A stretch of DNA of 64,000 nt from positions 7,472,501-7,536,500 of the forward strand of contig NZ_JAQNDO010000001.1 in NCBI RefSeq assembly GCF_028369105.1. The letters run 5' to 3'. The notes below the pieces were generated by a model. The model saw only the letters and a list, made by a program, of their open reading frames with translations, made no database searches and had not been told where the DNA came from. Positions 5,702 through 18,817 of this stretch are shown here, piece after piece. Position 1 is the stretch's first letter, and every line of letters starts with the position of its first letter. The stretch is from Polyangium mundeleinium. Lineage in GTDB: Bacteria; Myxococcota_A; Polyangia; Polyangiales; Polyangiaceae. The position numbers and the translations under genes are program-made.

Positions 5702-7264
5702 TCAGTACGACTTCGCGAACACCACCCGCTGCCGGCTCGGCTTGCCGGAGACGATGCAGCGCCCCTCTTCTTGGAGGTCCTTCGCGTCGGCCACGCCGTC
5801 GATGCCCGAGAGCGGGATGCAGCGGATCGTCACCTTGAACTTGTCCTTGAGATGCGCCTCGACCTCGGGCTCGCCCGACCAGTGCGCGAGCGCGAACCCG
5901 CCGTGGATCTCGGGTTTGTCCTCGTTCTTCGCCGTGAAGAACTTCTCGAAGTCCTTCATGTCGTCGATGCGCTTCGTGTTCGCGGCGCGGTGCTGCTTTG
6001 CCTTCGCGAGCAGACCGTTCTGGATGTCGGCGAGGATCTCGGGGATCTTCGTGACGAGCTCGGCGCGCCCGAGCGTCGCCTTGTCCTTCGTCCCGCGATC
6101 CCGACGCGCCACCATCACCACGTTGCCGTCGACGTCGCGCGGGCCGATCTCGATGCGGATCGGCGCGCCCTTCTTGATCCACTCCCACTGCTTGTCGCCG
6201 CCGCGGATGTCGCGCTTGTCGACCTCGACCTCGATCGGCCGCCCGCCGTAGCTCGTGCTGCGCAGCTCCGCAGCGACCGCGTCGACGTACTCCATCACCT
6301 TCGCCTTCGTGTCGTCGCCGCGCAGCACGGGCAGGATGACCACGTGCGCAGGCGCGAGCCGCGGCGGCAGGATGAGGCCGTCGTCATCCGCGTGCGTCAT
6401 GAGCAGGCCGCCGATGAGCCGCGTCGACACGCCCCACGACGTCGTCCACGCGTACTCCTCGGTCTCCTTCGCCGTCTGGAACTTGATCCCGCTCGCCTTG
6501 GCAAAATTCTGCCCGAGGAAGTGCGACGTCCCGGCCTGCAGCGCCTTGCGGTCCTGCATCATCGCCTCGATCGCGAAGGTGTCGACCGCGCCGGGGAACC
6601 GCTCGCTCGCCGTCTTCGGCCCCTTGATCACGGGCATCGCCATGAACTCCTCGGCGAACGTCGTGTACACGTCGAGCATCTGCATCGTCTCCGCGCGCGC
6701 CTCCTCCTCGGTCGCGTGCGCCGTGTGCCCCTCTTGCCAGAGGAACTCCGTCGTCCGCAAAAAGAGCCGCGTGCGCAGCTCCCAGCGCACCACGTTCGCC
6801 CACTGGTTGATGAGCAGCGGCAGATCCCGGTAGCTCTGCACCCAGCTCGCGAACGCGGCTCCGATGATCGTCTCCGACGTCGGCCGCACGATGAGCGGCT
6901 CCTCGAGCTTCGCCTCGGGATCCGGCACGAGCCCGCCCTCGGGCCCCGCGACGAGCCGGTGGTGCGTCACGATCGCGCACTCCTTGGCGAACCCCTCGAC
7001 GTGCTCGGCCTCTTTTTCGAGGAACGACTTCGGGATGAAGAGCGGGAAGTACGCGTTCTTGTGGCCCGTGGCCTTGAACATCCGGTCGAGCTCGCGCTGG
7101 ATGTTCTCCCAGAGCGCGTAGCCCCACGGCTTGATCACCATGCAGCCGCGCACCGGCGAGCTCTCGGCGAGATCGGCGGCACGCACGACCTGCTGGTACC
7201 ACTCGGCGTAGTCCTCGGCGCGGGTCGGGGTGATGGCAGTCTTCGGGGCGTCATTCTTGGCCAC
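5702..7264 (-). CDS. proS: Prolyl-tRNA synthetase (short, archaeal/eukaryote-like form)
   Basis: This cytoplasmic enzyme charges tRNA-Pro. The 520-residue product has class II synthetase motifs: GCMVIKPWGY near the start, motif 2 with the conserved arginine (VVRWELRTRLFLRTTEFLWQEGH), and a C-terminal anticodon-binding region ending in the SY dipeptide typical of the archaeal/eukaryote-like ProRS. It lacks the large editing insertion of the long bacterial form, as expected for this type. The start is a GTG at 7264 because GGAGGA lies 7 nt upstream; the ATG much further upstream in the same frame would run into the divergent cyanophycinase gene. Confidence 0.93.
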   Translation of the reverse strand: MAKNDAPKTAITPTRAEDYAEWYQQVVRAADLAESSPVRGCMVIKPWGYALWENIQRELDRMFKATGHKNAYFPLFIPKSFLEKEAEHVEGFAKECAIVTHHRLVAGPEGGLVPDPEAKLEEPLIVRPTSETIIGAAFASWVQSYRDLPLLINQWANVVRWELRTRLFLRTTEFLWQEGHTAHATEEEARAETMQMLDVYTTFAEEFMAMPVIKGPKTASERFPGAVDTFAIEAMMQDRKALQAGTSHFLGQNFAKASGIKFQTAKETEEYAWTTSWGVSTRLIGGLLMTHADDDGLILPPRLAPAHVVILPVLRGDDTKAKVMEYVDAVAAELRSTSYGGRPIEVEVDKRDIRGGDKQWEWIKKGAPIRIEIGPRDVDGNVVMVARRDRGTKDKATLGRAELVTKIPEILADIQNGLLAKAKQHRAANTKRIDDMKDFEKFFTAKNEDKPEIHGGFALAHWSGEPEVEAHLKDKFKVTIRCIPLSGIDGVADAKDLQEEGRCIVSGKPSRQRVVFAKSY

Positions 7265-7271
7265 AGCGCGT

Positions 7272-7277
7272 TCCTCC
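7272..7277 (-). promoter_or_regulatory. Shine-Dalgarno site of proS
   Basis: On the minus strand GGAGGA ends 7 nt before the GTG at 7264. This spacing decides the GTG start for proS. Confidence 0.7.
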
Positions 7278-7382
7278 GCGGCCGCCTCTATCACTTTTCC
7301 GGCGAGAGGGCGAACAAGCGAACACGAGCCGCCTCCGAACCCCCTCTCCGAAAAACGGGAACCGTGATAACCGTGGCGCGCC

Positions 7383-8258
7383 TTGGCCCACGACAAGCCC
7401 GAAGCGAGCGCGCCTGACGCGCACGGAAAAGACGGCCATCTCCAGCGCGGACCCCTCATCGCCATCGGCGGTGCGGAGGACAAAGTCGGCGCGCGGAATG
7501 TCCTGCGTGAAGTCGTCCGTCACGCCGGCGGCCCGAAACAAGCCCGGATCGCCGTCTTCCCCACGGCCTCCAGCATCCCCACCGAGCTCGCGGGGACGTA
7601 CGAGGCGATCTTCCGCGAGCTCGGCGCCGACGTACACGTCGTGCGGATCGAGTCGCGCGCCGACGGCGAGGATCCGCGGATCCTCGCCCTCGTCAAAGAG
7701 ATGACCGCGGTCTTCTTCACGGGCGGCGATCAAGGCCGCATCGTGACGATGCTCGGCGGCACCGAACTCGCGCGTACGATCCGCCGCGCGCACCGGAGTG
7801 GCTGCGTCGTCGCCGGCACCTCCGCGGGCGCGAGCGTCCTCTGCGACCACATGATCGCGCAGGGCAAGAAGGGCTACGCGCCGCGCCGCGAGCTCGTCAT
7901 GCTCGCGCCCGGCCTCGGCCTCACGCGCAAGCTCGTCATCGACCAGCACTTCGCGCAGCGCCACCGGATCGGCCGGCTCTTCTCCGCCGTCGCGATGAAC
8001 CCCTTCTTGATCGGCGTCGGCATCGACGAGGACACCGCGATCGTCCTGCGCTCCGACAAGAAGATGGACGTCATCGGCCGGGGCACGGTCACGATCATCG
8101 ACGGCTCGAAGATCCAGCACACCGACATCCACGAGGTCCCGCGAAACTCGTCCGCGGCGCTGCTCGGGTTGTCCGTCCACGTCCTGACGCAGGGTTGCGG
8201 CTACGACATCGATGGCCGTCAGCCCTCGTGGCCATCCCGCAGCAAGGAGGCAACGTGA
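7383..8258 (+). CDS. cphB: Cyanophycinase (peptidase family S51)
   Basis: This serine peptidase cuts the Arg-grafted poly-Asp polymer cyanophycin into beta-Asp-Arg dipeptides. The 291-residue product has the S51 nucleophile elbow GTSAGAS (S147), an N-terminal GGAEDK glycine-rich loop, FFTGGDQ and a conserved DQHFAQRHRIGRL stretch. Its length fits the family (about 270). No ATG or GTG is available: an in-frame TAA lies just upstream, so translation most likely starts at the TTG at 7383. The gene overlaps cphA by 4 bp (GTGA), which makes this a degradation-synthesis operon. The 118-bp gap to proS should hold both divergent promoters. Confidence 0.9.
   Translation: MAHDKPEASAPDAHGKDGHLQRGPLIAIGGAEDKVGARNVLREVVRHAGGPKQARIAVFPTASSIPTELAGTYEAIFRELGADVHVVRIESRADGEDPRILALVKEMTAVFFTGGDQGRIVTMLGGTELARTIRRAHRSGCVVAGTSAGASVLCDHMIAQGKKGYAPRRELVMLAPGLGLTRKLVIDQHFAQRHRIGRLFSAVAMNPFLIGVGIDEDTAIVLRSDKKMDVIGRGTVTIIDGSKIQHTDIHEVPRNSSAALLGLSVHVLTQGCGYDIDGRQPSWPSRSKEAT
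8245..8250 (+). promoter_or_regulatory. Shine-Dalgarno site of cphA
   Basis: AGGAGG lies 4 nt before the GTG at 8255, inside the end of cphB. It supports the GTG as the cphA start although the upstream frame is open. Confidence 0.75.
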
Positions 8259-10924
8259 AACTGCTCGAAACGCGCGTCTACCGCGGCCCCAACCTCTACG
8301 GATACCGCCCCGTCATTCGCCTGACCCTCGACCTCGAGGAGCTCGAGCAGTACCCGAGCAACAAGATCCCCGGCTTCGTGGATCGGCTGCTCGCCGACGT
8401 GCCCACGCTGCACGAGCACGGCTGCTCCTACGGCGAGCCCGGCGGCTTCATCCGCAGGCTGCAGGACGGCACGTGGTTCGGGCACATCACCGAGCACATC
8501 GCGCTCGAGCTCCAGTGCCTCGCGGGCACGCCCGTCACGTACGGCAAGACGCGCACGGCGCACCGCGAGGGCGTCTACCACGTCGTCTACAGTTTTGAAG
8601 AAGAGTCGGTCGGCAGGCGCGCCGGTGAGCTCGCGCTGCGTTACTTGCAAGGCCTCCTGCCCGCGCACTTCCCCGATCACCTGCCGCCCCTCGCCGACCT
8701 GAACGCCGAGATCGAGAATCTCGCGCGGCTCGCGGAGCGCATGGCGCTCGGCCCGTCGACGCGCAGCCTCGTCGACGAGGCGAAGCGCCGCGGCATCCCG
8801 ACGATGCGCCTCAACAAGCACAGCCTCGTGCAGTTCGGCTGGGGCACGCACCAGAAGCGCATCCAGGCCACGGTCACGAGCGAGACGCGGCACATCGCCG
8901 TGGAGATCGCGCAGGACAAGGAGCTCACGAACTCGCTGCTCGAGCGCGCGGGCCTGCCCGCGCCGCAGCAGGAGCGCGTCTACTCCGCGGACGAAGCCGT
9001 CGAGGCGGCCGAGCGCATCGGTTACCCCGTCGTCGTCAAGCCCATGGATCTCTCGCACGGCCGCGGCGTCGCGTTGAACCTCACGACGCCCGAGGCCGTG
9101 CGCGACGCGTACACGAAGGCGTACGACCTCTCGAGCTACGTCCTCGTCGAGACCTTCCAGCCCGGCAAGGATCACCGCGTGCTCGTGGTGAACGGCGAGG
9201 TCGTCGCCGTCTCCGAGCGCGTGCCGGGCCATGTCGTCGGCGACGGCAAGAGCACGATCAAGGAGCTCGTCGACGTCGTGAACACCGACCCGCGCCGCGG
9301 CGTGGGTCACGAAAAAGTCCTCACGCGGATCGAGATCGACGACCAGGCGAGCCGCCTCATGGGGCAGGCCGGCGTCACGCTGGAGACCGTGCTCCCCGCG
9401 GGCCAGGTCTTCGCGCTGCGCTCGACGGGCAACCTCTCCACGGGTGGCACCGCGATCGATCGCACCGACGTGATCCACCCGGACAACATCGACATCAGCG
9501 TGCGCGCCGCGAAGGTCGTCGGCCTCGACGTCGCGGGCATCGATCTCATCTGCCCCGACATCTCGAAGAGCGTGCGCGAGCACGGCGGCGTCATCGTCGA
9601 GATCAACGCGGCGCCCGGCTTCCGCATGCACGTCTCGCCGACCGTGGGCACGCCGCGCAACGTCGCGTCGCCCGTGCTCGAGATGCTCTTCCCGAACGGC
9701 GCGCCTGCGCGCATCCCACTCGCCGCGATCACCGGCACGAACGGCAAGACCACGACGAGCCGCATGGTCGCGCACATCCTCAAGATGAGCGGCAAGCGCA
9801 CGGGCCTCACCACGACGGACGGCATCTACATCGACGGCGAGCGCATCCTGAAGGGCGACATGACAGGACCGTGGAGCGCGCGCGTCGTGCTCACGGATCC
9901 GACCGTGGAGGCCGCGGTGCTGGAGACGGCGCGCGGCGGCGTTCTTCGCGAAGGGCTCGGCTGGGATCGGTGCGACGTCGGCGCGGTGCTCAACGTCTCG
10001 GCCGATCACCTCGGCCTCGCGGGCATCGACACCGTCGAGGATCTCGCGTTCGTGAAGCGGCTCGTCGTGGAGGTCGTGCGGGACGGCGGCACGAGCGTGC
10101 TCAACGCCGACGACGAGCTCGTGCGCGAGATGGCGGACAAGGCAGGCGGCCGCGTCATGTGGTTCTCGCGCTCGCCTTCGAACGAGACCGTCCGCAAGCA
10201 CGTGCGCGCGGGCGGCCGCGCGGTCGTGCTCGAGCAGGGCGTCAACGGCGACATGATCACGATCTACGACGGCGACCGGCACGTCCCGGTCACGTGGACG
10301 CACCTCGTCCCCGCCACGTTCGAGGGCAAGGCGAAGTTCAACGTCGAGAACGCGCTCGCGGCGGCGGCGATCGCCTTCTCGATGGGCATCTCGCTCGAAC
10401 ACATCCGCCAGGGCCTGCGCACCTTCACGACCTCGTTCTTCCAGGCGCCCGGGCGCTGCAACGTCTTCGACGAGCACCCGTTCCGCGTGATCGTCGACTA
10501 CGGCCACAACGCAGCGGCGATGTCGAAGATGGCCGAGCTCGTCCTCGGCCTCCGCCGCGAGCGCTCGATCGGCGTGCTCATGGCCGCGGGGGATCGGCGC
10601 GACGACGACATCCGCGCGATCGGCCGCGAGGCAGCACGCGCGTTCGACGTGGTCATCGCGAAGGAGGACGCGTCGCGCAGGGGCAGGAAGCCCGGCGAGA
10701 TCGCCTCGCTGCTCGCGGAGGGCGCGCGGGAGGCGGGCAAGGCCGAGGAGCAGATCCTGAAGAAGCTCGACGAGAAGGAGGCCGTGGACACGGCACTCGC
10801 AATGGCGCGGCCCGGCGACCTCGTGGTGCTGTTCGCGGACGACGTCACGGCCTGCTGGAAGCAGGTCATCTACTGGGGGAAGGAGCGCACGTCGCACCTG
10901 CCTTCCTTGCCGGACGAGGCCTGA
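8255..10924 (+). CDS. cphA: Cyanophycin synthetase
   Basis: CphA polymerises Asp and Arg into cyanophycin, an insoluble nitrogen store, using ATP. The 889-residue length matches the family. An N-terminal CphA-specific domain (LETRVYRGPNLYG) is followed by an ATP-grasp module (VVVKPMDLSHGRGVALN near residue 260; VIVEINAAPGFRMH near 450) that adds Asp, and a Mur-ligase-like module with P-loop ITGTNGKTTT near residue 492 that adds Arg. The GTG start overlaps the cphB stop (GTGA) and has AGGAGG upstream. The next gene, an isoaspartyl peptidase, starts 2 bp after the stop. All expected active regions are present, so a functional enzyme is likely. Confidence 0.95.
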   Translation: MKLLETRVYRGPNLYGYRPVIRLTLDLEELEQYPSNKIPGFVDRLLADVPTLHEHGCSYGEPGGFIRRLQDGTWFGHITEHIALELQCLAGTPVTYGKTRTAHREGVYHVVYSFEEESVGRRAGELALRYLQGLLPAHFPDHLPPLADLNAEIENLARLAERMALGPSTRSLVDEAKRRGIPTMRLNKHSLVQFGWGTHQKRIQATVTSETRHIAVEIAQDKELTNSLLERAGLPAPQQERVYSADEAVEAAERIGYPVVVKPMDLSHGRGVALNLTTPEAVRDAYTKAYDLSSYVLVETFQPGKDHRVLVVNGEVVAVSERVPGHVVGDGKSTIKELVDVVNTDPRRGVGHEKVLTRIEIDDQASRLMGQAGVTLETVLPAGQVFALRSTGNLSTGGTAIDRTDVIHPDNIDISVRAAKVVGLDVAGIDLICPDISKSVREHGGVIVEINAAPGFRMHVSPTVGTPRNVASPVLEMLFPNGAPARIPLAAITGTNGKTTTSRMVAHILKMSGKRTGLTTTDGIYIDGERILKGDMTGPWSARVVLTDPTVEAAVLETARGGVLREGLGWDRCDVGAVLNVSADHLGLAGIDTVEDLAFVKRLVVEVVRDGGTSVLNADDELVREMADKAGGRVMWFSRSPSNETVRKHVRAGGRAVVLEQGVNGDMITIYDGDRHVPVTWTHLVPATFEGKAKFNVENALAAAAIAFSMGISLEHIRQGLRTFTTSFFQAPGRCNVFDEHPFRVIVDYGHNAAAMSKMAELVLGLRRERSIGVLMAAGDRRDDDIRAIGREAARAFDVVIAKEDASRRGRKPGEIASLLAEGAREAGKAEEQILKKLDEKEAVDTALAMARPGDLVVLFADDVTACWKQVIYWGKERTSHLPSLPDEA

Positions 10925-10926
10925 AC

Positions 10927-11817
10927 GTGAAATACGCCATTCTGACGCACGGGGGCGCGGCCTCGCCGCACGTCCATTCGGACGGCTGCGTGAAGGCCGC
11001 GGAGTCGGCACGCTCGGTGCTGGAGCGCGGCGGCGACGCGCTCGAAGCCGCGCTCGCGGCGACGGTGATCCTGGAGGACGATCCGCGCTTCAATGCGGGG
11101 ACGGGCTCGAACCTACGTTTCGATGGGAAGACCATTGAAATGGACGCGTCCGTGATGACGAGCGACGCGAGGTTTGGCGCGGTCGCCTGCATCCAGCGGG
11201 TGAAGAATCCGATCCTGGTGGCGGCGAAGGTGATGGAGACGCCGCATTTGCTGATCGTGGGGGACGGCGCCACGCAGTTCGCCCGCGCGCATCGGTTCTC
11301 CGATTACGATCCGCTCACGGAGAAGGCGCAGGGCAAGCACGCGCGGGCCATGGCGGAGCTCCGGGGCCAAGGCGACGGCGATTATGCGGCGGACGCGGCG
11401 CCGTGGCATTCGATCGACTGGAAATCGCTGTGGAACTTCGGCGAGGCGCCCTTCCAGGACACGGTGGGCGCAGTCGTGCGGGACAGCCAGGGAAGGTTCG
11501 CGGCGACCGCGTCGACGGGCGGGACGGTGTACATGCTGAAGGGCCGCGTGGGCGATTCGCCGCTCATGGGCTGCGGCGTGTACGCGGGCCCGGCAGGCGC
11601 GGTGGCCGCGACCGGCGTGGGCGAGGAGATCGTGCGGCGCTTCCTGTCGAAGACGGTCTACGATTGGCTGGAGGAAGGCATCCCGGCGGCGCGGGCGGCG
11701 CAGCGGGGCATTGCGAAGTTCCCGGAGATCGTGGACGTGGGCCTGCTCGTGGCGTCGCGTGATGGGCAGGCGATCGCGTCGAATCGGAACATGGCGAGCG
11801 CGCTGCTCGTGGGGTAG
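10927..11817 (+). CDS. Isoaspartyl peptidase / plant-type L-asparaginase (Ntn hydrolase)
   Basis: The 296-residue product is an Ntn hydrolase that should cleave itself and use the freed Thr to hydrolyse isoaspartyl dipeptides. The N-terminal HGGA motif, the FNAGTGSNL loop and the nucleophile in FQDTVGAVV (T179) are all present. In this operon its natural substrate would be the beta-Asp-Arg released by cyanophycinase, giving free Asp and Arg. It starts with GTG 2 bp after the cphA stop. A decayed second copy lies at 13546-13904, beyond the ATPase/RloB-like cassette, so this intact gene is the surviving member of an old tandem duplication. Confidence 0.9.
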   Translation: MKYAILTHGGAASPHVHSDGCVKAAESARSVLERGGDALEAALAATVILEDDPRFNAGTGSNLRFDGKTIEMDASVMTSDARFGAVACIQRVKNPILVAAKVMETPHLLIVGDGATQFARAHRFSDYDPLTEKAQGKHARAMAELRGQGDGDYAADAAPWHSIDWKSLWNFGEAPFQDTVGAVVRDSQGRFAATASTGGTVYMLKGRVGDSPLMGCGVYAGPAGAVAATGVGEEIVRRFLSKTVYDWLEEGIPAARAAQRGIAKFPEIVDVGLLVASRDGQAIASNRNMASALLVG

Positions 11818-11843
11818 AGCGAAGCGAGGGGGGCCGGCCGACC

Positions 11844-12989
11844 ATGTTGAAGCGGATCAGCATCCACAATTTCAAGTGCTTCGTCGACTTCGATCTCGAT
11901 TTACCACGAATTAGCTTGGTCGTCGGTAGCAATGGATCCGGCAAGACTAGCCTCTGGGAGGTCCTGGCTGGGCTTCAGGACGTTATCGTGCGGGGAGCCG
12001 ACATCTCGACCGCATTTCCCACGAGAACGCTCACGCGGTGGCGGAAGGACGAGCCGGTTCAGCGGTTCGGACTGACGTTGGAGAACGACGAAGGAACGTA
12101 CCAATACGACCTCGAAGTCGGCCATGACGAAAAGCGCCGCATCCCTACCATTCGACGTGAGGAGCTTCGTTCCGGAAACCGAACGCTCCACAAGACCATC
12201 GACGGGGCAATCACCGTCCAACACGGACACTCGCTGAGGAAGCGCTTGGCATTCAGCCGCAAGCTTTCCTATCTGTCTGCTATGGAAGCGAGCGACGCGA
12301 ACGAGTTCTTGATTGCCTTTCGCGAATCCGTTGCGAACCTGTGGTTGCTTGCCCCGTCACCGCGGCGGATCGAGCCGACGACGCAAGCGGAAGCCAATTG
12401 GCTCGATCGCGACGGCGCCAACTTCGCTTCGTGGTGGCGTGGCATCTTGGTTGAGCGCACGGAGGTGAGCGCACGGTTGCTAGAGGCACTTCGCCCCGCT
12501 ATGCCCGGCTTACAAGGCATCACGTTCGAACGGATGAGCAGCGAAGTTCGCGAGTTGATGTTGAACTTCCGTATCCGAGGCTCCGACTACAAGCTCTCCG
12601 CGAGTGAACTCTCTGACGGCCAACGTTCGCTGCTCTTGCTCTACGGCTTCCTGTACGGCGCGCTCGACCGGCCCGCGACGGTCTTCATCGACGAACCCGA
12701 GACGAACCTCGCTCCTCATGAGATGCAGCCTTGGCTCTCCGCGATGCGGATGGCGATCGAGGACCACGGAGGCCAAGTCCTCGTGATCTCCCACCACCCC
12801 GAGGTCATCGATTACGTCGCCTCCGCGCACACGATCCAGTTCCGGCGGCCTCATGGCGGGCCAGCCATGACCAACGAGGTGACGCTCGAAACCACGGGCG
12901 GCCGCCCTGTCTCCGAGTGGCTGTCTCGGCCCTGGGCTTACGAGGACGAAGAAGAGGGGGACCAGCGTGAAGAAGAGCCAGCGCCGTAG
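11844..12989 (+). CDS. OLD/RecF-like AAA ATPase of a probable two-gene defence system
   Basis: This is a 381-residue ABC-type (SMC/RecF-like) ATPase. Walker A is GSNGSGKT (28-35), the signature region is SASELSDGQRS, Walker B is VFIDEPETNLAP (about 279-290) and the switch His is in VISHHPEV. There is no C-terminal TOPRIM domain; instead the next gene, overlapping by 23 bp, encodes a small acidic-motif protein. Such ATPase plus RloB/TOPRIM-type pairs are known or suspected anti-phage modules (AbiL-like, RloAB, split OLD). GC content and codon use are clearly lower than in the flanking genes, and a duplicated gene fragment follows the pair, both signs of transfer. Anti-phage function is inferred. 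Confidence 0.82.
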   Translation: MLKRISIHNFKCFVDFDLDLPRISLVVGSNGSGKTSLWEVLAGLQDVIVRGADISTAFPTRTLTRWRKDEPVQRFGLTLENDEGTYQYDLEVGHDEKRRIPTIRREELRSGNRTLHKTIDGAITVQHGHSLRKRLAFSRKLSYLSAMEASDANEFLIAFRESVANLWLLAPSPRRIEPTTQAEANWLDRDGANFASWWRGILVERTEVSARLLEALRPAMPGLQGITFERMSSEVRELMLNFRIRGSDYKLSASELSDGQRSLLLLYGFLYGALDRPATVFIDEPETNLAPHEMQPWLSAMRMAIEDHGGQVLVISHHPEVIDYVASAHTIQFRRPHGGPAMTNEVTLETTGGRPVSEWLSRPWAYEDEEEGDQREEEPAP

Positions 12990-13545
12990 GCTCCACGTCC
13001 TCTGTGAGGATCGCCTTACCGTCGACTTTGTCGAGCGTCTCGCCGATCGCTGGGGAATGGGACCGCGGCAACGCAGTATTGACACGTCTCCCAAAGCACG
13101 GGGCTCTGGCGAGCAATACGTGCGTGAGCATTTCGCCAAAGCTGTTGCTCGCTGGCGGGCGCAAAGCGATGAGAACGTCGTGTTACTCGTCGTTGTTGAT
13201 GGAGACAACAAGGGCGTGGCCCGGCGACGAAACGAACTTGAGCAGACGCTCAGGGAAGCAGGAGCCACGCGCATCGCTGCCTCCGACCCCGTCGCGATCA
13301 TCGTGCCCACCTGGCACATCGAGACCTGGATCGCTTGGCTCTGCGGGCATCGCCCCGTCAGCGAGCTTCAACGGTACAAGAACGACGAACCCCTCGGTCG
13401 GGAGGTTGCTAACAAGATCAAGGCGGGCGAGTACACGCCCAAGCTTGCCGTCGCCGCCTGGACGCACCCCGCCCCCGACGAGGCCACCCACGTCCCCTCC
13501 CTGACCGACGCGCGGGACGAGCTTACGCGCCGCCTCGGCGTCTGA
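12967..13545 (+). CDS. RloB/DUF4276-like protein with TOPRIM-type acidic motifs
   Basis: This is a 192-residue partner of the ATPase. It has a Glu in LCEDRLTVDF (E14), a DxD motif in LVVVDGDNKG (D78, D80) and a conserved-looking PTWHIETW block (114-121). This E...DxD layout with a terminal W-rich motif is the pattern of RloB-like and TOPRIM-fold nucleases, in which the acidic residues bind metal. I did not run a profile search, so the family is a best guess. The start is GTG inside the ATPase gene (23-bp overlap), which implies translational coupling and a complex. Its stop lies exactly at the junction with the duplicated isoaspartyl peptidase fragment. Confidence 0.72.
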   Translation: MKKSQRRRLHVLCEDRLTVDFVERLADRWGMGPRQRSIDTSPKARGSGEQYVREHFAKAVARWRAQSDENVVLLVVVDGDNKGVARRRNELEQTLREAGATRIAASDPVAIIVPTWHIETWIAWLCGHRPVSELQRYKNDEPLGREVANKIKAGEYTPKLAVAAWTHPAPDEATHVPSLTDARDELTRRLGV

Positions 13546-13904
13546 GGTTCGGCGCGGTCGCCTGCATCCAGCGGGTGAAGAATCCGATCCTCGTGGCGGC
13601 GAAGGTGATGGAGACGCCGCATTTGCTGATCGTGGGGGACGGGGCCACGCAATTCGCGCGCGCGCATCGATTCCCGGATTACGATCCGCTCACGGAGAAG
13701 GCGCAGGGCAAGCACGCGCGGGCCAGGGCGGAGCTCCGGGGCCAGGGCGACGGCGATTACGCGGCCGACGCGGCGCCGTGGCATTCCATCGACTGGAAGT
13801 CGCTGTGCACCGAGATCGTGGACGTGGGCCTGCTCGTGGCGTCGCGTGATGGGCAGGCGATTGCTTCCAATCGGAACATGGCGAGCGCGCTTCTGGTGGG
13901 GTAG
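13546..13904 (+). pseudogene. Decayed second copy of the isoaspartyl peptidase gene
   Basis: This stretch is nearly identical to the isoaspartyl peptidase gene at 10927-11817. It starts at the codon for about residue 82, runs to the WKSL motif (about 168), and then jumps to the last 30 or so codons (EIVDVGLLVASRD to ALLVG and the stop). About 300 bp including the catalytic Thr are deleted, and the first 80 codons are replaced by the ATPase/RloB-like cassette. The match continues about 15 bp past the stop codon. A frame from a GTG at 13575 is still open but cannot make an active enzyme. Confidence 0.85.
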
Positions 13905-14439
13905 AGCGGCAGCGGGGGATGTGTCTCCTCTGCCCCTGGACCCGGGGCCTGCGCGAGCGCTGGATGCGGGGTCGATGAACGGCCGATGGCAAGACCGGCG
14001 GCGAAGCTGCCAGCCAAGGCCACGGCGCTGCAGGTTCCACGGGCGACGTGCGCCCTCGGGCGCCGCAGGATGGGGGGCGCAGAGCGCGCTTGGGGACCTG
14101 CGGCGCCGTCGAACGGGAGACGGCCTCGCGGAGGGAGACTTGCAGCGCCGCAGATCGGTGTCTCCAGAGCGGAGTTTTCGAGCTGCGGCGCCGCCTCCCG
14201 GGTGCGGGTGAGCACGGAGAACTGCTTGTGGTGCCGCAGGGCCGAGGACGCGCCCGGGGAGCGGCAGTTCACGACGCCCGAGGTCGGCGGGCGCGCGGAC
14301 GGGGACCGGGTTGCGGCGCGGCAGGAGGCAATCCACGGGGATCGATCGCGATCTTGCGGGGAGGCAGGGCCTTCGGCGCCCGGGTCGAGACCGGCGACGC
14401 ACCTGCCCCAACACGCGGCGCGGCAGGTTCGACGGGTGA
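13905..14439. other. Intergenic region without a supported gene
   Basis: No frame here has convincing protein composition or motifs. The part near 13930-13990 weakly resembles one end of the hairpin-array repeat that starts at 14440. The stretch may be a decayed internal part of that element or remnant sequence next to the cassette. Confidence 0.4.
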
Positions 14440-14620
14440 CGTACCCATCGCCGGTGGAAACGTCAGCGCTGCGGTCTTGGTGGGCAGGGTCGTCGCGGGT
14501 CTTGACCTGGCCTGTTCGATGAACTGCGCATCGCGCAGTTCATCGCTACGAGTCCAGCGCTTGCGCTGGTCCGGGTCGAGGGGTGGACAACCCCTCGTCG
14601 GGTCCGGGGTGAAACCCCGG
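14440..14620. repeat. Hairpin-array repeat, copy A
   Basis: A module of about 75 bp shared with the copies at 54 and 60 kb is followed by four perfect hairpins: 14518-14544 (arms GATGAACTGCGC and complement, 3-nt loop), 14554-14569 (CCAGCGC arms), 14577-14597 (CGAGGGG arms) and 14604-14620 (CCGGGG arms). The last three supply the final codons and stop of the ferritin-like lipoprotein gene on the minus strand. Confidence 0.75.
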
Positions 14621-15736
14621 CGCGACGCTTTCAAGCAGCATCCCCGCCGCGGGCCCCACCACCTCCTCCATCGCCCGCGCCGTCGCCTCCGCGAGCGCTG
14701 CGCCTGCGAGCCGCCCATGCCGCGCGAACCGCGGATCCCCCGCGCCATCTGCATCCAGCACCACGCCGTGCCCGAGCCCTGCAAAGACCTCCTCCACGGC
14801 CGCCCGCACCCGCTCGCCCCCGACGCGGATCGCCCACGCCACCGTGCGCCACGCCAGCTCTGCGTGCCGCGCCTCGTCGGCCGCGATCCCGGCGAGCACC
14901 TCGGCGACGGCGGGATCCTCGGCCTTCATGCATTGCTCCGCCGCGATCACGGCTGCGATCGTCTCGCCGATGCATCCCTCTTTTGCCGTGCGCGCCGCGA
15001 TCGACGCGAGATCCGCCACGACCTCCGCTGCGCCTCCGAAGGGGAATGCCCCCGGCGCGACGGGCTCGCCTGCGTATGCGCTTGCCAATGCAAAGCAGAG
15101 ACGCGCGTGCCGCACCTCGTCGAGCGCTGCCCGGTGCGCCTCTTCCAAAAGCTCCGCCGGCGCGCCCACGGCGAGCAGCTCCAGCGCGAAGCGCCCGAAT
15201 GACGCCACGGACGCGTGCTCGAAAAGCGCGTCGCGCGTCCATTCCGCCGCGAGCGCCGCGCGGAGGTCGGGCGCGATGCCCGAAACGTCCGGTCCGGCCG
15301 ATGTCTCCGCGCCCCACCCGCTGTCCCCACGGCCGCGAAGCGCGAACGCCGTGCGGGCCACTTCGTCGACGAGGTACGGCCGCCCCTCGCAATAGGGGAT
15401 GAATTCGGTGGCGTAGCAGCATTGGCCGTTCTTCAGCGTCCCGTCGCTTTTCACCGTGTGGTTCGCGAAGAACGCTGTATCGAGCCGCGTCTTCGCCTCG
15501 TCCCGCGACGGGCACACGAGCGGATCGACGCTCCCGCCGCCACCACCACCGCCGCCGCCTGCGCCGGCGTCCTCCGGCGGCCAGTCGAGGCATCGCTCGG
15601 CGACCACGGGCTCGGAATTGTCAGGGCAACTCGTGCTGAAGAAGCATCCGGAGACGGCGGCGCCCGCGGCCGGGAGCGCGAGCAGGGCGAAAAGACGATG
15701 GGCGAGCGAGCGGCGGAAAACATGCGCAGGATTCAT
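14546..15736 (-). CDS. Ferritin-like domain lipoprotein
   Basis: The product is a lipoprotein of 396 residues. A signal peptide ends in the lipobox VSGC, a poly-Gly linker follows, then a short Cys-bearing region, and from about residue 150 a four-helix ferritin-like domain. Two diiron half-sites are visible: FEHASVASF with EVRHARLC, and EGCIGETIAA with ADEARHAE. This suggests a metal-binding or oxidoreductase protein facing the periplasm; the substrate is unknown. The ATG at 15736 is chosen because GGAGG lies 5-6 nt upstream and the signal peptide starts there. The last 26 or so residues (APGFHPGPDEGLSTP onward) come from hairpin-array repeat copy A. The next gene upstream is a paralogue. 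Confidence 0.82.
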   Translation of the reverse strand: MNPAHVFRRSLAHRLFALLALPAAGAAVSGCFFSTSCPDNSEPVVAERCLDWPPEDAGAGGGGGGGGGSVDPLVCPSRDEAKTRLDTAFFANHTVKSDGTLKNGQCCYATEFIPYCEGRPYLVDEVARTAFALRGRGDSGWGAETSAGPDVSGIAPDLRAALAAEWTRDALFEHASVASFGRFALELLAVGAPAELLEEAHRAALDEVRHARLCFALASAYAGEPVAPGAFPFGGAAEVVADLASIAARTAKEGCIGETIAAVIAAEQCMKAEDPAVAEVLAGIAADEARHAELAWRTVAWAIRVGGERVRAAVEEVFAGLGHGVVLDADGAGDPRFARHGRLAGAALAEATARAMEEVVGPAAGMLLESVAPGFHPGPDEGLSTPRPGPAQALDS

Positions 15737-15874
15737 CGAGGCCTCCGTGGGGGGGTTCCCAATCGTGCCGGCCCCCGAATGCACGGCACGTGCCCTCCGC
15801 ATGCGCGCCCAAATTCGAGGCGCCGCCGCCCGCCGCCCCCTGACAATCACGTCACGGCGTGGCCCAGCCGCCCG

Positions 15875-17179
15875 TCATCCGCGGGCCGAAAGGAAAGCTT
15901 GCGCCGTCTTCCGTGCCAAACCCAGGTTCTGCTCCCACGAGGCGTCGATGTCCTGCGGCCCGATCCTTCCATATCCCCGCCACGCCGCCGGCTCCGCCTC
16001 CGGCAAAACCTCCCTCGCCGGCCCCTCCGGCGACGCTGCCACGGCCTCGCCCAGCGCCTCGCGCACCGGCCTTCCTCCCTCGGACAGGCACCATTGCACG
16101 ACCCGCCACCCGAGCTCTGCGTGCCGCGCCTCGTCCGCCGCAATCACGCCGAGCGCCGCGCCGATGCCCGGCGCCTTCGCTCCCCTCGCCTGCCTCCGCG
16201 CCCGCTCGGCCGCGGCGCCCTCGCCGAGGCAGCCGTCTTCCCAGGACTCGACGCACAGACGCTGGAGCTCCCGCGTCCGATCGAGCCCCGACCGCCGCGG
16301 CGACGGGAGCAACGCGGGCGTGAGCGTCCTCGACGCGAGATCCCCTGCGATCGAAGCACAAAGCTCCGTATGCCGGACCTCGTCGGCCGCCGCGGCGAGC
16401 GCCCGGTCCACGAGGTCGCGCGGCGCGCCCACGGCCGCGAGATCCCGCGCCAAGGCGAGGAACGCAGGGATGGACGCGCATTCGCCCCGCGCGTCGTCCT
16501 GCCAGGCCGAAACGAGGGCGGCCCGCGTCGTCTCGTCGATCCGCCCGCTGCGCCCGCTCCCACGGCGCGGGGTTCCGGCGACGCCCGGCAAGACGTAACG
16601 GCCGTCCACACGAAGCGGCCGCCCGATGACGCATACGCCGGGCTCGCCGTACATCGGCGGGAAATGGGCCCCCACGGTGATCGTGTATTCTGGTTTTCTC
16701 ACGTCGCCCGGCAGGGGAATCGTGCCGCGAAATGCCAGGTCGATGATCTCGCCGCCGATGCCGCCGAGGCCCACGTGGATCCCGTGGCCGCCCGGGTGCA
16801 GGTCGGAGAGCGCGGTGCGATACGTCCAGCCCACCTCGGCGTTCGCGCCGAAGCCGGGATTCCGCAGGTCGATTCCGCCGTGAAGGCCTGCGGCGAACCG
16901 GCCCGCGGACGAGAAGTTGAGCCACGAGGCTTGCGCGAACGCGCCGATGCCGCCGCGGGGCCCGGAGAAGCAGCCGGTGTTGCCGACGAAGAGGAGCGAG
17001 TAGCGGGCGTCGAGGCCGAGGCCGAAGTTGAGCTTGTCGCCGAAGCTCAGGGACAACATGAGCCCGGGCGAGAACCAGTGGATGTCGTCGTCCGCGCGCG
17101 CCTCGCCGGGGGCCAAGAGGATGGCGGCGGCGCCGAGCGCGCAAAGCGTAGGACCAAGACGAGAAGATAAGGAACCCAT
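15875..17179 (-). CDS. Probable outer-membrane barrel fused to a ferritin-like domain
   Basis: The 434-residue product has a cleavable signal peptide ending near GEARADD, then about 170 residues of Gly/aromatic alternating strands (SPGLMLSLSFGDKLNFGLGLDAR, YSLLFVGNTG) like a small outer-membrane beta-barrel. After a basic linker comes a ferritin-like domain from about residue 220 (GECASIPAFLALARDL, DEVRHTELC, EGAAAERARRQ, ADEARHAELGWR). It is a paralogue of the adjacent lipoprotein in this second part only. The ATG at 17179 has GGAGG upstream, and a longer frame would run into the divergent VWA gene. An envelope metal-handling role is inference. Confidence 0.78.
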   Translation of the reverse strand: MGSLSSRLGPTLCALGAAAILLAPGEARADDDIHWFSPGLMLSLSFGDKLNFGLGLDARYSLLFVGNTGCFSGPRGGIGAFAQASWLNFSSAGRFAAGLHGGIDLRNPGFGANAEVGWTYRTALSDLHPGGHGIHVGLGGIGGEIIDLAFRGTIPLPGDVRKPEYTITVGAHFPPMYGEPGVCVIGRPLRVDGRYVLPGVAGTPRRGSGRSGRIDETTRAALVSAWQDDARGECASIPAFLALARDLAAVGAPRDLVDRALAAAADEVRHTELCASIAGDLASRTLTPALLPSPRRSGLDRTRELQRLCVESWEDGCLGEGAAAERARRQARGAKAPGIGAALGVIAADEARHAELGWRVVQWCLSEGGRPVREALGEAVAASPEGPAREVLPEAEPAAWRGYGRIGPQDIDASWEQNLGLARKTAQAFLSARG

Positions 17180-17341
17180 GAGGACCTCCGAGGGCTCATG
17201 GTAACGGAGGTCGCTCACCTTTCCCAGTTGGCTGGACGTTTGCGCCCTTGACGCAGGCGGGGACGCGCGATTCCATGGAAGGCCTCGACGCCGGGGAATC
17301 CCCCCTGCGCCGAAAAACCCTTGCCTTGGATTGGAATCACC

Positions 17342-18817
17342 ATGCAACGACGACGAACGTCTCCCACGGAAACGATCCTTCGCTCGCTTCGTCCCCTGGC
17401 CCTCGTGCTTGCGCTCGCGCCCGTCGGGTGCGGCGATTATTCGGCCGGGAGTGAATTCCTCGGGGCCACGCCCGGCGGCGCCCAGGACATGGGGCTCGCG
17501 CGCAGCATCATCGCGTCCGGCGGCGTGCCGACCCTCGACGATTTCACCCCCGAGGGCCTCTACTCCGAGCACGACCTCGCCCTCGCGGCCCCCGTGCCCT
17601 GCGCAAAACCGCTCTGCATCAACACGGCCGCGGGCCTCGATGTCGGCCTCGACGACGACGAGCGCGACCTCTTCGTTCAGCTCGGCATGCAATCGAACAT
17701 CAGCGAGGATGAATTCGTCCGCAAGCCGCTGAACCTCGGCATCGTGATCGACACGAGCGGCTCGATGGATGGAAACCTCTCGCACGTGCGCGAGGCGCTG
17801 CACACGCTCGTCGACAACCTCCGGCCAGACGATCGCGTGGCCCTCGTGGAGTTCGCTGCGAGCGCGAACACGATCCTCAGCTCGACGCCCGTCTCCGACA
17901 AGGAATCGCTGCACGAGGCGATCGACGAGATCACGACCGGCGGCTCGACCTCGCTGGAGGAGGGCATGAAGCTCGGGTATGCCGTGATCGACGAGCACGT
18001 GCAGAGCGGCACGCTCTCGCGGCTGATGGTGTTCACCGACGCGATGCCGAACGTCGGCGCGACCGACGCCGCGAGCTTTCAGTCGATGGTCAAGGCGGCC
18101 TCGGCGCTCGACATCGGCTTCACGTTCTTCGGCTTCGGCGCGAACTTCGACGCCTCGTTCGTCGACCAGATCGGCCACCTGCGCGGCGGAAACTATCGAT
18201 TCGTGGGCGCCGAGGACGTGAAGCCGATCTTCGAAGAGGAGCTCGATTTCCTGGTGACGCCCATTGCGTACGATCTCCGCGTCTCCACGGCGGCGGCCGA
18301 GGGGACCGCGGTCTCCACGGTGTACGGCGTGCCGCAGCTCGGCGAGCATGGGAGCGGCGAGCTCTTCGACGTGACCACGGTGTTCCTGAGCAAACGCAAA
18401 GGGGGCATCGTGCTCCGGCTCGACGGGACGAACCTCGAGCCGCTCGTCTCGGGCGAGGCGATCGAGGCGGGCTCGGTGACGATCGAATACGCGACGCCGG
18501 AGGGCGCCGTCGAGACGGACACGCTGCCGATCCGCTTGCCCTTCCAGACGCTGCCGGGGCCGACGGACGCGCTCTTGCCGACCCCGCACATCGCGCGGAC
18601 GCTCGCCGTGACGAACGAATACCTCGTGATGAAGCGGCTCTGCGGGGATTTTCACGCCGGCAGCCTCGACCCCGTGGACGGGGCCGCGCGGCTCGAACAG
18701 GCGATCGCGCGGCTCACGAGCGCCGACGCGGCCCTCTCTGACGAGAACCTGAAGCGGGAGATCACCCTGCTCCAGAAGCTCGGGCAAAACCTCGGCCTCG
18801 CCGCGGGGACGCCATGA
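17342..18817 (+). CDS. VWA-domain lipoprotein
   Basis: The 491-residue lipoprotein has its lipobox at LAPVGC (C30). A von Willebrand factor A domain starts near residue 130 with the metal-ion-dependent adhesion site DTSGSM (D137) and continues through GGSTSLEEG and VFTDAMPN. This resembles the YfbK/inter-alpha-inhibitor-type VWA proteins of myxobacteria. The C-terminal part (about 310-490) is a predicted beta-sandwich followed by helices. VWA domains bind protein partners through a divalent ion. The gene overlaps the next small lipoprotein gene by 4 bp (ATGA), and an ATG at 17342 fits the signal peptide better than an upstream TTG. Confidence 0.85.
   Translation: MQRRRTSPTETILRSLRPLALVLALAPVGCGDYSAGSEFLGATPGGAQDMGLARSIIASGGVPTLDDFTPEGLYSEHDLALAAPVPCAKPLCINTAAGLDVGLDDDERDLFVQLGMQSNISEDEFVRKPLNLGIVIDTSGSMDGNLSHVREALHTLVDNLRPDDRVALVEFAASANTILSSTPVSDKESLHEAIDEITTGGSTSLEEGMKLGYAVIDEHVQSGTLSRLMVFTDAMPNVGATDAASFQSMVKAASALDIGFTFFGFGANFDASFVDQIGHLRGGNYRFVGAEDVKPIFEEELDFLVTPIAYDLRVSTAAAEGTAVSTVYGVPQLGEHGSGELFDVTTVFLSKRKGGIVLRLDGTNLEPLVSGEAIEAGSVTIEYATPEGAVETDTLPIRLPFQTLPGPTDALLPTPHIARTLAVTNEYLVMKRLCGDFHAGSLDPVDGAARLEQAIARLTSADAALSDENLKREITLLQKLGQNLGLAAGTP

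Follow-up and report, generated by a model that had tools for sequence, protein, structure and literature searches.

What do two short, overlapping genes do behind the isoaspartyl peptidase gene iaaA of the soil myxobacterium Polyangium mundeleinium? They lie in a 64,000-nt stretch of its 13.25 Mb genome (G000) that we call the window, the first gene encoding an ATPase and the second a small acidic protein, here named protein B. A preliminary description of this DNA had placed the two overlapping genes between the intact iaaA and a partial copy of it, with K34 as the Walker A lysine of the ATPase and with CED, DGD and PTWHIETW in B, and reading frames, coordinates and motifs are as it gave them. 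We read the pair, with a probability of roughly 0.7, as a phage-defence device that joins an OLD-type ATP-binding cassette (ABC) ATPase to a TOPRIM-like effector, in the manner of PARIS, AbiL and HEC-01. Constant pairing, patchy occurrence, purifying selection and defence genes beside relatives elsewhere all argue for such a role.

Judged from its sequence, the upstream gene encodes an OLD/RecF-type ABC ATPase. It matches Pfam AAA_21 (E 2.9e-19, 70.7 bits for a cut-off of 27) and AAA_15 (2.4e-16, 60.8 bits for a cut-off of 32.1), which bears out the SMC/RecF-like ATPase of the preliminary description, though its scores for RecF/SMC-type models fall under the cut-offs of those models. In PADLOC, whose matches we graded by E-value alone and which within the window was applied to the pair's own proteins only, the best model is HEC-01A (3.4e-27, residues 2-324), followed by AriA (1.3e-22) and AbiLi (3.5e-22) and, more weakly, by mad3 (4.8e-20) and GajA (5.5e-15). 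Compared with PDB sequences, the ATPase profile recovers many ABC proteins, the best being an ABC-F protein (5e-15), with an OLD-family protein at 2.3e-13. The motifs that go by the names Walker A (G28xNGxGK34), ABC signature (S257xGxR261), Walker B (D283-E284) and H-loop (H317-H318) are all present, and their named residues are invariant in eight of eight aligned sequences, the window copy among them.

Protein B was compared with known families through its relatives. Besides the start methionine, E14, D15, P42, V52, D78, D80, R87, W121, G127 and E133 are invariant in 19 aligned B proteins (alignment A7). Of two further alignments, A9 was made without L115 and A8 without L144 and the loci with short flanks. 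TOPRIM domains are marked by a conserved glutamate after strand 1 and a DxD motif after strand 3, a pattern that B carries as E14, D78 and D80 in 19/19 sequences. When the 19-protein profile was aligned by hhalign, the probability was 93.1% for DUF4276 (E 3.2e-7, 107 columns) and 70.3% for RloB, with 0.1% for a control alignment to the ATPase profile, and E14, the DxD and the ExW of B fell on conserved points of both the DUF4276 and the RloB family. Once gappy columns were stripped, DUF4276 still gave 88%, and the observed scores beat 100/100 column shuffles for both families; in an earlier shuffle run that kept the gappy columns, a single RloB shuffle out of 60 reached 135.5 against an observed 36.6, and no cause was found. 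DUF4276 in turn aligns with OLD TOPRIM domains at 93.3% and RloB at 19.6%. When B is set directly on OLD TOPRIM, in an alignment of 10% probability, E14 lies on the TOPRIM glutamate and D78-x-D80 on the DxD.

In scans of single proteins, B and its relatives stay below the gathering score of DUF4276 (PF14103), one of eight relatives touching that model at E 0.15 in the direct Pfam scan, and the kinship is visible from profile to profile alone; for RloB/AbiLii (PF13707), neither B nor its relatives gave a match in Pfam and PADLOC scans. The PADLOC model HEC-01B matches B weakly and in part (5.2e-4, residues 53-122 of 192), with 9.6e-6 as the best score among the 19 relatives, while AriB gave no match for B at E<=1 and mad4 was touched by one relative in 19 (E 0.0073). 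DUF4276 proteins scanned in the same way were HEC-01B in 3/3 cases (best 4.5e-76) and RloB proteins AbiLii in 2/2 (best 1.7e-28); the DUF4276 and RloB profiles returned nothing meaningful from PDB sequences (best E 0.23 and 0.049). By these profile comparisons the family nearest to B is DUF4276/HEC-01B rather than RloB/AbiLii, and the family of B itself carries no name in the libraries searched, which leaves the effector unclassified. The TOPRIM-like label of the preliminary description thus holds by profile comparison, with no match of B to RloB, DUF4276 or OLD_TOPRIM in direct Pfam scans, and its RloAB/AbiL-like plan holds as an ATPase-effector pair, the nearest effector family being a different one from RloB.

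A TOPRIM fold is accordingly a prediction made from sequence, to which structure models were added. Both models of B are of low confidence and open strand-helix-strand-helix-strand-helix, and in the low-confidence model of B, E14 and the DxD follow strands 8-13 and 71-76. Aligned with VIA-align, the first, poor model reached a best Z of 6.0, the OLD TOPRIM structure 6nk8 (Z 5.1, root-mean-square deviation (rmsd) 5.4, 138 residues aligned) standing among ties. The second model, equally poor and made for the orthologue of So ce26, had as its top match 2p62 (PH0156; Z 8.5, rmsd 3.1, 111 aligned), which we take to be a member of a Toprim-like Pfam family, with the OLD TOPRIM structure 6njx (Z 6.9, rmsd 4.2, 103 aligned) listed amid unrelated Rossmann-like structures.

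The two genes keep company at all 22 other uncut loci. An ATPase resembling that of the window adjoins B at 7/7 uncut loci of the family (G104, where B is cut by a contig end, was left out of the count) and at 15/15 further loci of the phylum, four of them weak B matches. A match to the ATPase profile also lies within 1.5 kb of 22 of the 24 DUF4276 genes and all 12 RloB genes examined, after L127 (internal stop) and L119 (below the cut-off) had been dropped, and because ATPases neighbour B, DUF4276 and RloB genes alike, the three related effector families appear to share one plan. The occurrence of the pair is patchy: B was found in at least 8 of 108 family genomes and at least 17 of 377 sampled phylum genomes, the present genome included, these being lower bounds with up to 30 candidates scored per genome in the family and 8 in the phylum. 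A scan for B of genome contigs, sensitive to close relatives only, returned So ce26 only. No relatives of B were found in plasmids and phages by tblastn, nor in viral contigs; the ATPase profile matched one viral contig (L109), in which no open reading frame fits the B profile. Separately, we noted a three-gene version (L174 1787-4460 and L175 8150-10823) in which a shorter, second ATPase-like protein (329 aa) joins the ATPase and B.

We then read 18 other B loci with longer flanks, several of them reaching a contig end. Family scans of 19 neighbour proteins, chosen by eye from nine of these loci, recognised defence genes at at least 6 of the 18. In G107 (L065 8715-15767) a type I-B CRISPR-Cas locus has the B-ATPase pair between its cas6 and cas3 genes, oriented as cas3-cas5-cas7 are; in G383 the pair comes after brxC (1435 bits), in G029 after IetA and IetS, and in G336 GmrSD, a DruE-like helicase and a type IIG/DrmMI-like methylase form a run with it. 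The distance to a DUF1016 nuclease is about 2.9 kb in G282, and that to a type IIG-like methylase about 1.6 kb in G010. A second ATPase (HEC-01A, 5.8e-17) stands close to the pair in G168 (L174 6992-9097), and its 316-aa partner gave no PADLOC match at E<=1e-4; the single neighbour proteins scanned in G103 and at the second G029 locus matched nothing. The HEC systems of PADLOC are Hma-embedded candidates, several of which are reported as antiviral in assays, HEC-06 being named (PMC12988326). The defence module proposed in the preliminary description is supported by these neighbours in other genomes.

The place of the pair in its own genus was examined in five congeners. The stretch 7000-11817, which ends with iaaA, is collinear in 5/5, and the pair follows iaaA in one of them (G089), at the same site and behind the same 26-bp spacer; relatives without the pair at this site were sought, and the four other congeners are such cases. 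There iaaA is followed by a zinc-ribbon-type gene, recognised by eye (G086, G087, G088), or by about 5.2 kb of unrelated genes (G085, L056 6965-12190) that include one for a 723-aa protein without a PADLOC match at E<=1e-4. A gene for a 244-aa protein follows in G087, G088 and G089 and has only distant matches elsewhere in G000, G085 and G086. Between G000 and G089, iaaA is 90% identical and the pair only about 70% at the DNA level. Towards the 3' end of B, in 60-bp steps from 13340, identity rises to 88, 82 and 93%, and it reaches 85% at 12020-12079 in the ATPase gene; between these stretches it about equals the identity with So ce26. Synonymous divergence (dS) in the G089 comparison, estimated by a rough count method and near saturation, amounts to 1.03 and 0.79 for the pair, as against 0.21-0.30 for cphA and iaaA. 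The ratio of non-synonymous to synonymous divergence (dN/dS) of the pair is 0.28 and 0.32, pointing to purifying selection. These values suggest, as the simplest reading, that the interior of the pair was replaced by divergent alleles at a shared slot, because faster protein evolution alone does not raise dS. Pair alleles were probably exchanged at the iaaA slot by recombination through iaaA.

The iaaA fragment behind the pair bears on the same event. It consists of blocks of 264 bp and about 97 bp, and the longer one differs from intact iaaA at only 14/264 sites, so that chance likeness does not explain it. Both blocks together hold 21 differences, 18 of them synonymous, and the fragment therefore diverged mostly while coding. 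At 15 of the 21 sites the letter of the fragment occurs in other species of the genus and at 6 it is unique, and the letter of intact iaaA is unique at 2; on these counts a fresh tandem duplication of iaaA is disfavoured. The best reading of the fragment is a second iaaA allele of which this remnant stayed behind as the pair, together with an iaaA end, entered by recombination; we prefer this reading to the decayed duplicate of the preliminary description. A tandem duplication of iaaA followed by loss of a second copy of the pair may still account for it: a tree of the duplicated columns, in which the edges of the fragment are misaligned, groups it with intact iaaA (support 0.649), and the fragment ends TAGAGCG, as does iaaA of G000 and G089.

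The features of the locus are collected in the table. The two reading frames overlap by 23 nt, the iaaA fragment begins at the stop codon of B, and iaaA and the pair are probably carried on one transcript. GC is 60.6% in the ATPase gene and 64.2% in B for 69.7% in the window, lower than the surroundings as had been noted, the wording "far lower" being too strong; GC at third codon positions (GC3) is about 75% in the pair, 89% in iaaA and 95% in cphA.

Table. Features of the ATPase-B locus behind iaaA (window coordinates).
Feature	Position	Strand	Basis
Intact iaaA (isoaspartyl peptidase / plant-type asparaginase), upstream of the pair	10927..11817	+	Pfam Asparaginase_2, 1.4e-63
Spacer from iaaA stop to ATPase start, 26 bp	11818..11843	+	24/26 bases common to congener G089
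ABC/OLD-type ATPase, 381 aa	11844..12989	+	Pfam AAA_21, AAA_15; PADLOC HEC-01A, AriA, AbiLi
Walker A lysine K34 codon	11943..11945	+	ATPase motif alignment
Protein B (192 aa), a predicted TOPRIM-like nuclease of an unclassified family	12967..13545	+	hhalign DUF4276/RloB, weak PADLOC HEC-01B
E14 codon (LCED), candidate metal ligand of B	13006..13008	+	invariant in 19/19 aligned
D78-G79-D80 codons (DxD), candidate metal ligands of B	13198..13206	+	D78 and D80 invariant in 19/19
Partial iaaA copy, probably a second allele, lacking its 5' part and 288 internal bp	13544..13904	+	comparison with intact iaaA

Upstream of iaaA, window 7383-10924 holds a cyanophycinase-like gene (by eye) and the cyanophycin synthetase gene cphA (Pfam Cyanophycin_syn, 6.6e-42), which make up a cyanophycin cluster. 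Downstream of the fragment, a dispersed repeat at 13929-14383 has at least 12 matches elsewhere in G000, of about 280-470 bp and 75-88% identity, and occurs also in G085 and G086, in smaller number among the matches listed. A second dispersed repeat of about 70 bp (14450-14520) recurs many times in G000 and likewise in G085 to G088, identity being mostly 85-94% among the matches listed. The minus-strand genes 14546-15850 and 15875-18787 (3' part) resemble paralogues with similar C-terminal parts, which carry repeated DEARHAEL-type motifs and look ferritin-like by eye.

How the pair might work can be sketched by analogy. In PARIS, a TOPRIM tRNase is described as held by an ATPase hexamer and set free by a phage protein (PMC12409363), and AAA-type antitoxins are reported to neutralise TOPRIM_OLD toxins in tested pairs, in a study that also treats AbiL and whose authors speculate that such pairs are abortive infection (Abi) systems (PMC10440598). 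The ATPase of the present pair is expected, along these lines, to sense infection and unleash B. Probably multimeric, it would bind B and hold it inactive, and a phage product or the damage caused by infection would be sensed through it. B would then be released or activated as a metal-dependent nuclease with E14, D78 and D80, and may cut RNA (tRNA, as AriB does) or DNA. Growth stop or death of the infected cell ahead of phage release would be the abortive outcome.

Several results weigh against a defence device with a TOPRIM-like effector. Viewed by eye, the pair has cyanophycin genes and a stretch rich in repeats close by, which form no defence island, and the 6 of 18 other loci with defence genes are a raw count over neighbour proteins picked by eye. 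B and its relatives gave 0/19 Pfam matches at E<=0.01; B reached a best E of 0.14 in NCBIfam and no meaningful match in PHROGs, and its 19-protein profile found a single chance-level match (E 0.57) among PDB sequences, where profile A1 found none. The probability of the B-RloB alignment drops to 33% once gappy columns are stripped, and, set directly on OLD TOPRIM, B reaches only 10% by hhalign. The two structure models, made from two-row alignments, have a mean predicted local distance difference test score of 52.6 and 52.0, and Foldseek returned 0 matches at E<=0.001 for the first of them against PDB. With models this poor and many unrelated Rossmann-like folds tying in structure alignment, B might be no nuclease at all, its E and DxD serving another metal-dependent or a non-catalytic Rossmann-like role while the ATPase acts. 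We hold this to be quite unlikely, given that E14, D78 and D80 are invariant in 19/19 sequences and that the DUF4276 and RloB families conserve E / D(xD) / E at corresponding points.

The pair might instead be a toxin-antitoxin addiction module, with B as toxin and the ATPase as antitoxin, kept for its own sake and only incidentally defensive. The overlapping genes, the changing slots in which the pair is found and the tested AAA/TOPRIM_OLD pairs fit this, whereas neighbours in defence loci fit a sensor-effector device equally well and the authors of those toxin tests themselves suspect Abi systems (PMC10440598); we regard it as unlikely. A housekeeping role as an accessory to cyanophycin degradation or DNA repair, with the pair travelling along with iaaA, would suit the 26-bp distance from iaaA to the pair in two species and the RecF/SMC-type character of the ATPase, under those cut-offs as it is. 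Distribution largely refutes it: 4/5 congeners have no pair behind iaaA, B occurs in few of the sampled phylum genomes, and relatives are found within defence loci, CRISPR-Cas and BREX among them. Conservation beside cyanophycin genes across many species, which would speak against a defence module, was not seen either, the pair of So ce26 (2.75 Mb) lying about 3.4 Mb from iaaA (6.19 Mb), and we consider a housekeeping role very improbable. The lower GC and GC3 of the pair and the two iaaA copies that flank it might suggest that the pair came recently from some distant donor, with the fragment as a fresh tandem duplicate made at insertion. G089, however, has the same slot and spacer, and the 21 differences of the fragment (18 synonymous, 15 with letters known from other species) point to long-separated alleles rather than a fresh copy, so that a recent arrival is improbable; the "recently acquired" status in the preliminary description is only partly borne out, being weakened by the presence of the pair in G089 at the same place, although four congeners lack it.

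The phage-defence reading gives the pair an interest of its own. An ATPase switch with a probable nucleic-acid-cutting partner is a known plan, and the effector family lies outside the models tested. Toprim domains are described as recurring in defence systems of many kinds, their role there being largely unknown (PMC12409363), and in the literature on HEC-01, PADLOC, RloB/AbiL, DUF4276, AriB and MADS we recognised no description of this pair. A compact, unclassified effector with a constant ATPase, found inside CRISPR-Cas and BREX loci, is thus a target for work on toxicity, trigger and nucleic-acid target, and the iaaA slot offers a case in which one allele of a defence pair seems to have been swapped for another on the spot, a remaining gene fragment marking the event. 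A bolder proposal, plausible and somewhat short of even odds, is that B founds a further family of OLD-ABC/TOPRIM effectors beside RloB/AbiLii, DUF4276/HEC-01B and AriB, and that pair alleles are swapped in place behind iaaA through recombination at iaaA ends, renewing phage specificity without a mobile element.

Among known systems, OLD and Gabija GajA share the logic of an ABC ATPase with a TOPRIM domain, and the ATPase matches GajA (5.5e-15) while the E and DxD of B find their counterparts in OLD TOPRIM, but the present pair consists of two separate short proteins and the direct B-OLD alignment is the weak one given above. For MADS, the ATPase matches mad3 (4.8e-20) and one B relative in 19 touches mad4 (0.0073), yet the NCBIfam MADS3 score of the ATPase, 71 bits, is far under the cut-off of 420. 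PARIS (AriA and AriB) resembles the pair in the ATPase (AriA, 1.3e-22) and in the supposed logic of an ATPase sensor with a TOPRIM tRNase (PMC12409363), and differs in that B has no AriB match. AbiL (AbiLi and AbiLii) and RloA-RloB have the same two genes, an ATPase and a TOPRIM-like protein, with an ATPase match to AbiLi of 3.5e-22; the B-RloB alignment, however, falls from 70% to 33% without gappy columns and has no direct match beside it, and the conserved SNPCFELW context of RloB proteins reads VPTWHIETW in B. The closest likeness is to HEC-01, an AAA ATPase (HEC-01A) with a DUF4276-type protein (HEC-01B): HEC-01A is the best PADLOC match of the ATPase (3.4e-27), DUF4276, that is HEC-01B, is the nearest family of B, and the ATPase adjoins the effector in both. 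B matches HEC-01B at only 5.2e-4 over part of its length, whereas DUF4276 proteins reach 4.5e-76. Because B falls short of the HEC-01B, DUF4276, RloB and AriB models, we do not place the pair inside a named system and would file it as HEC-01/AbiL-like rather than as a member.

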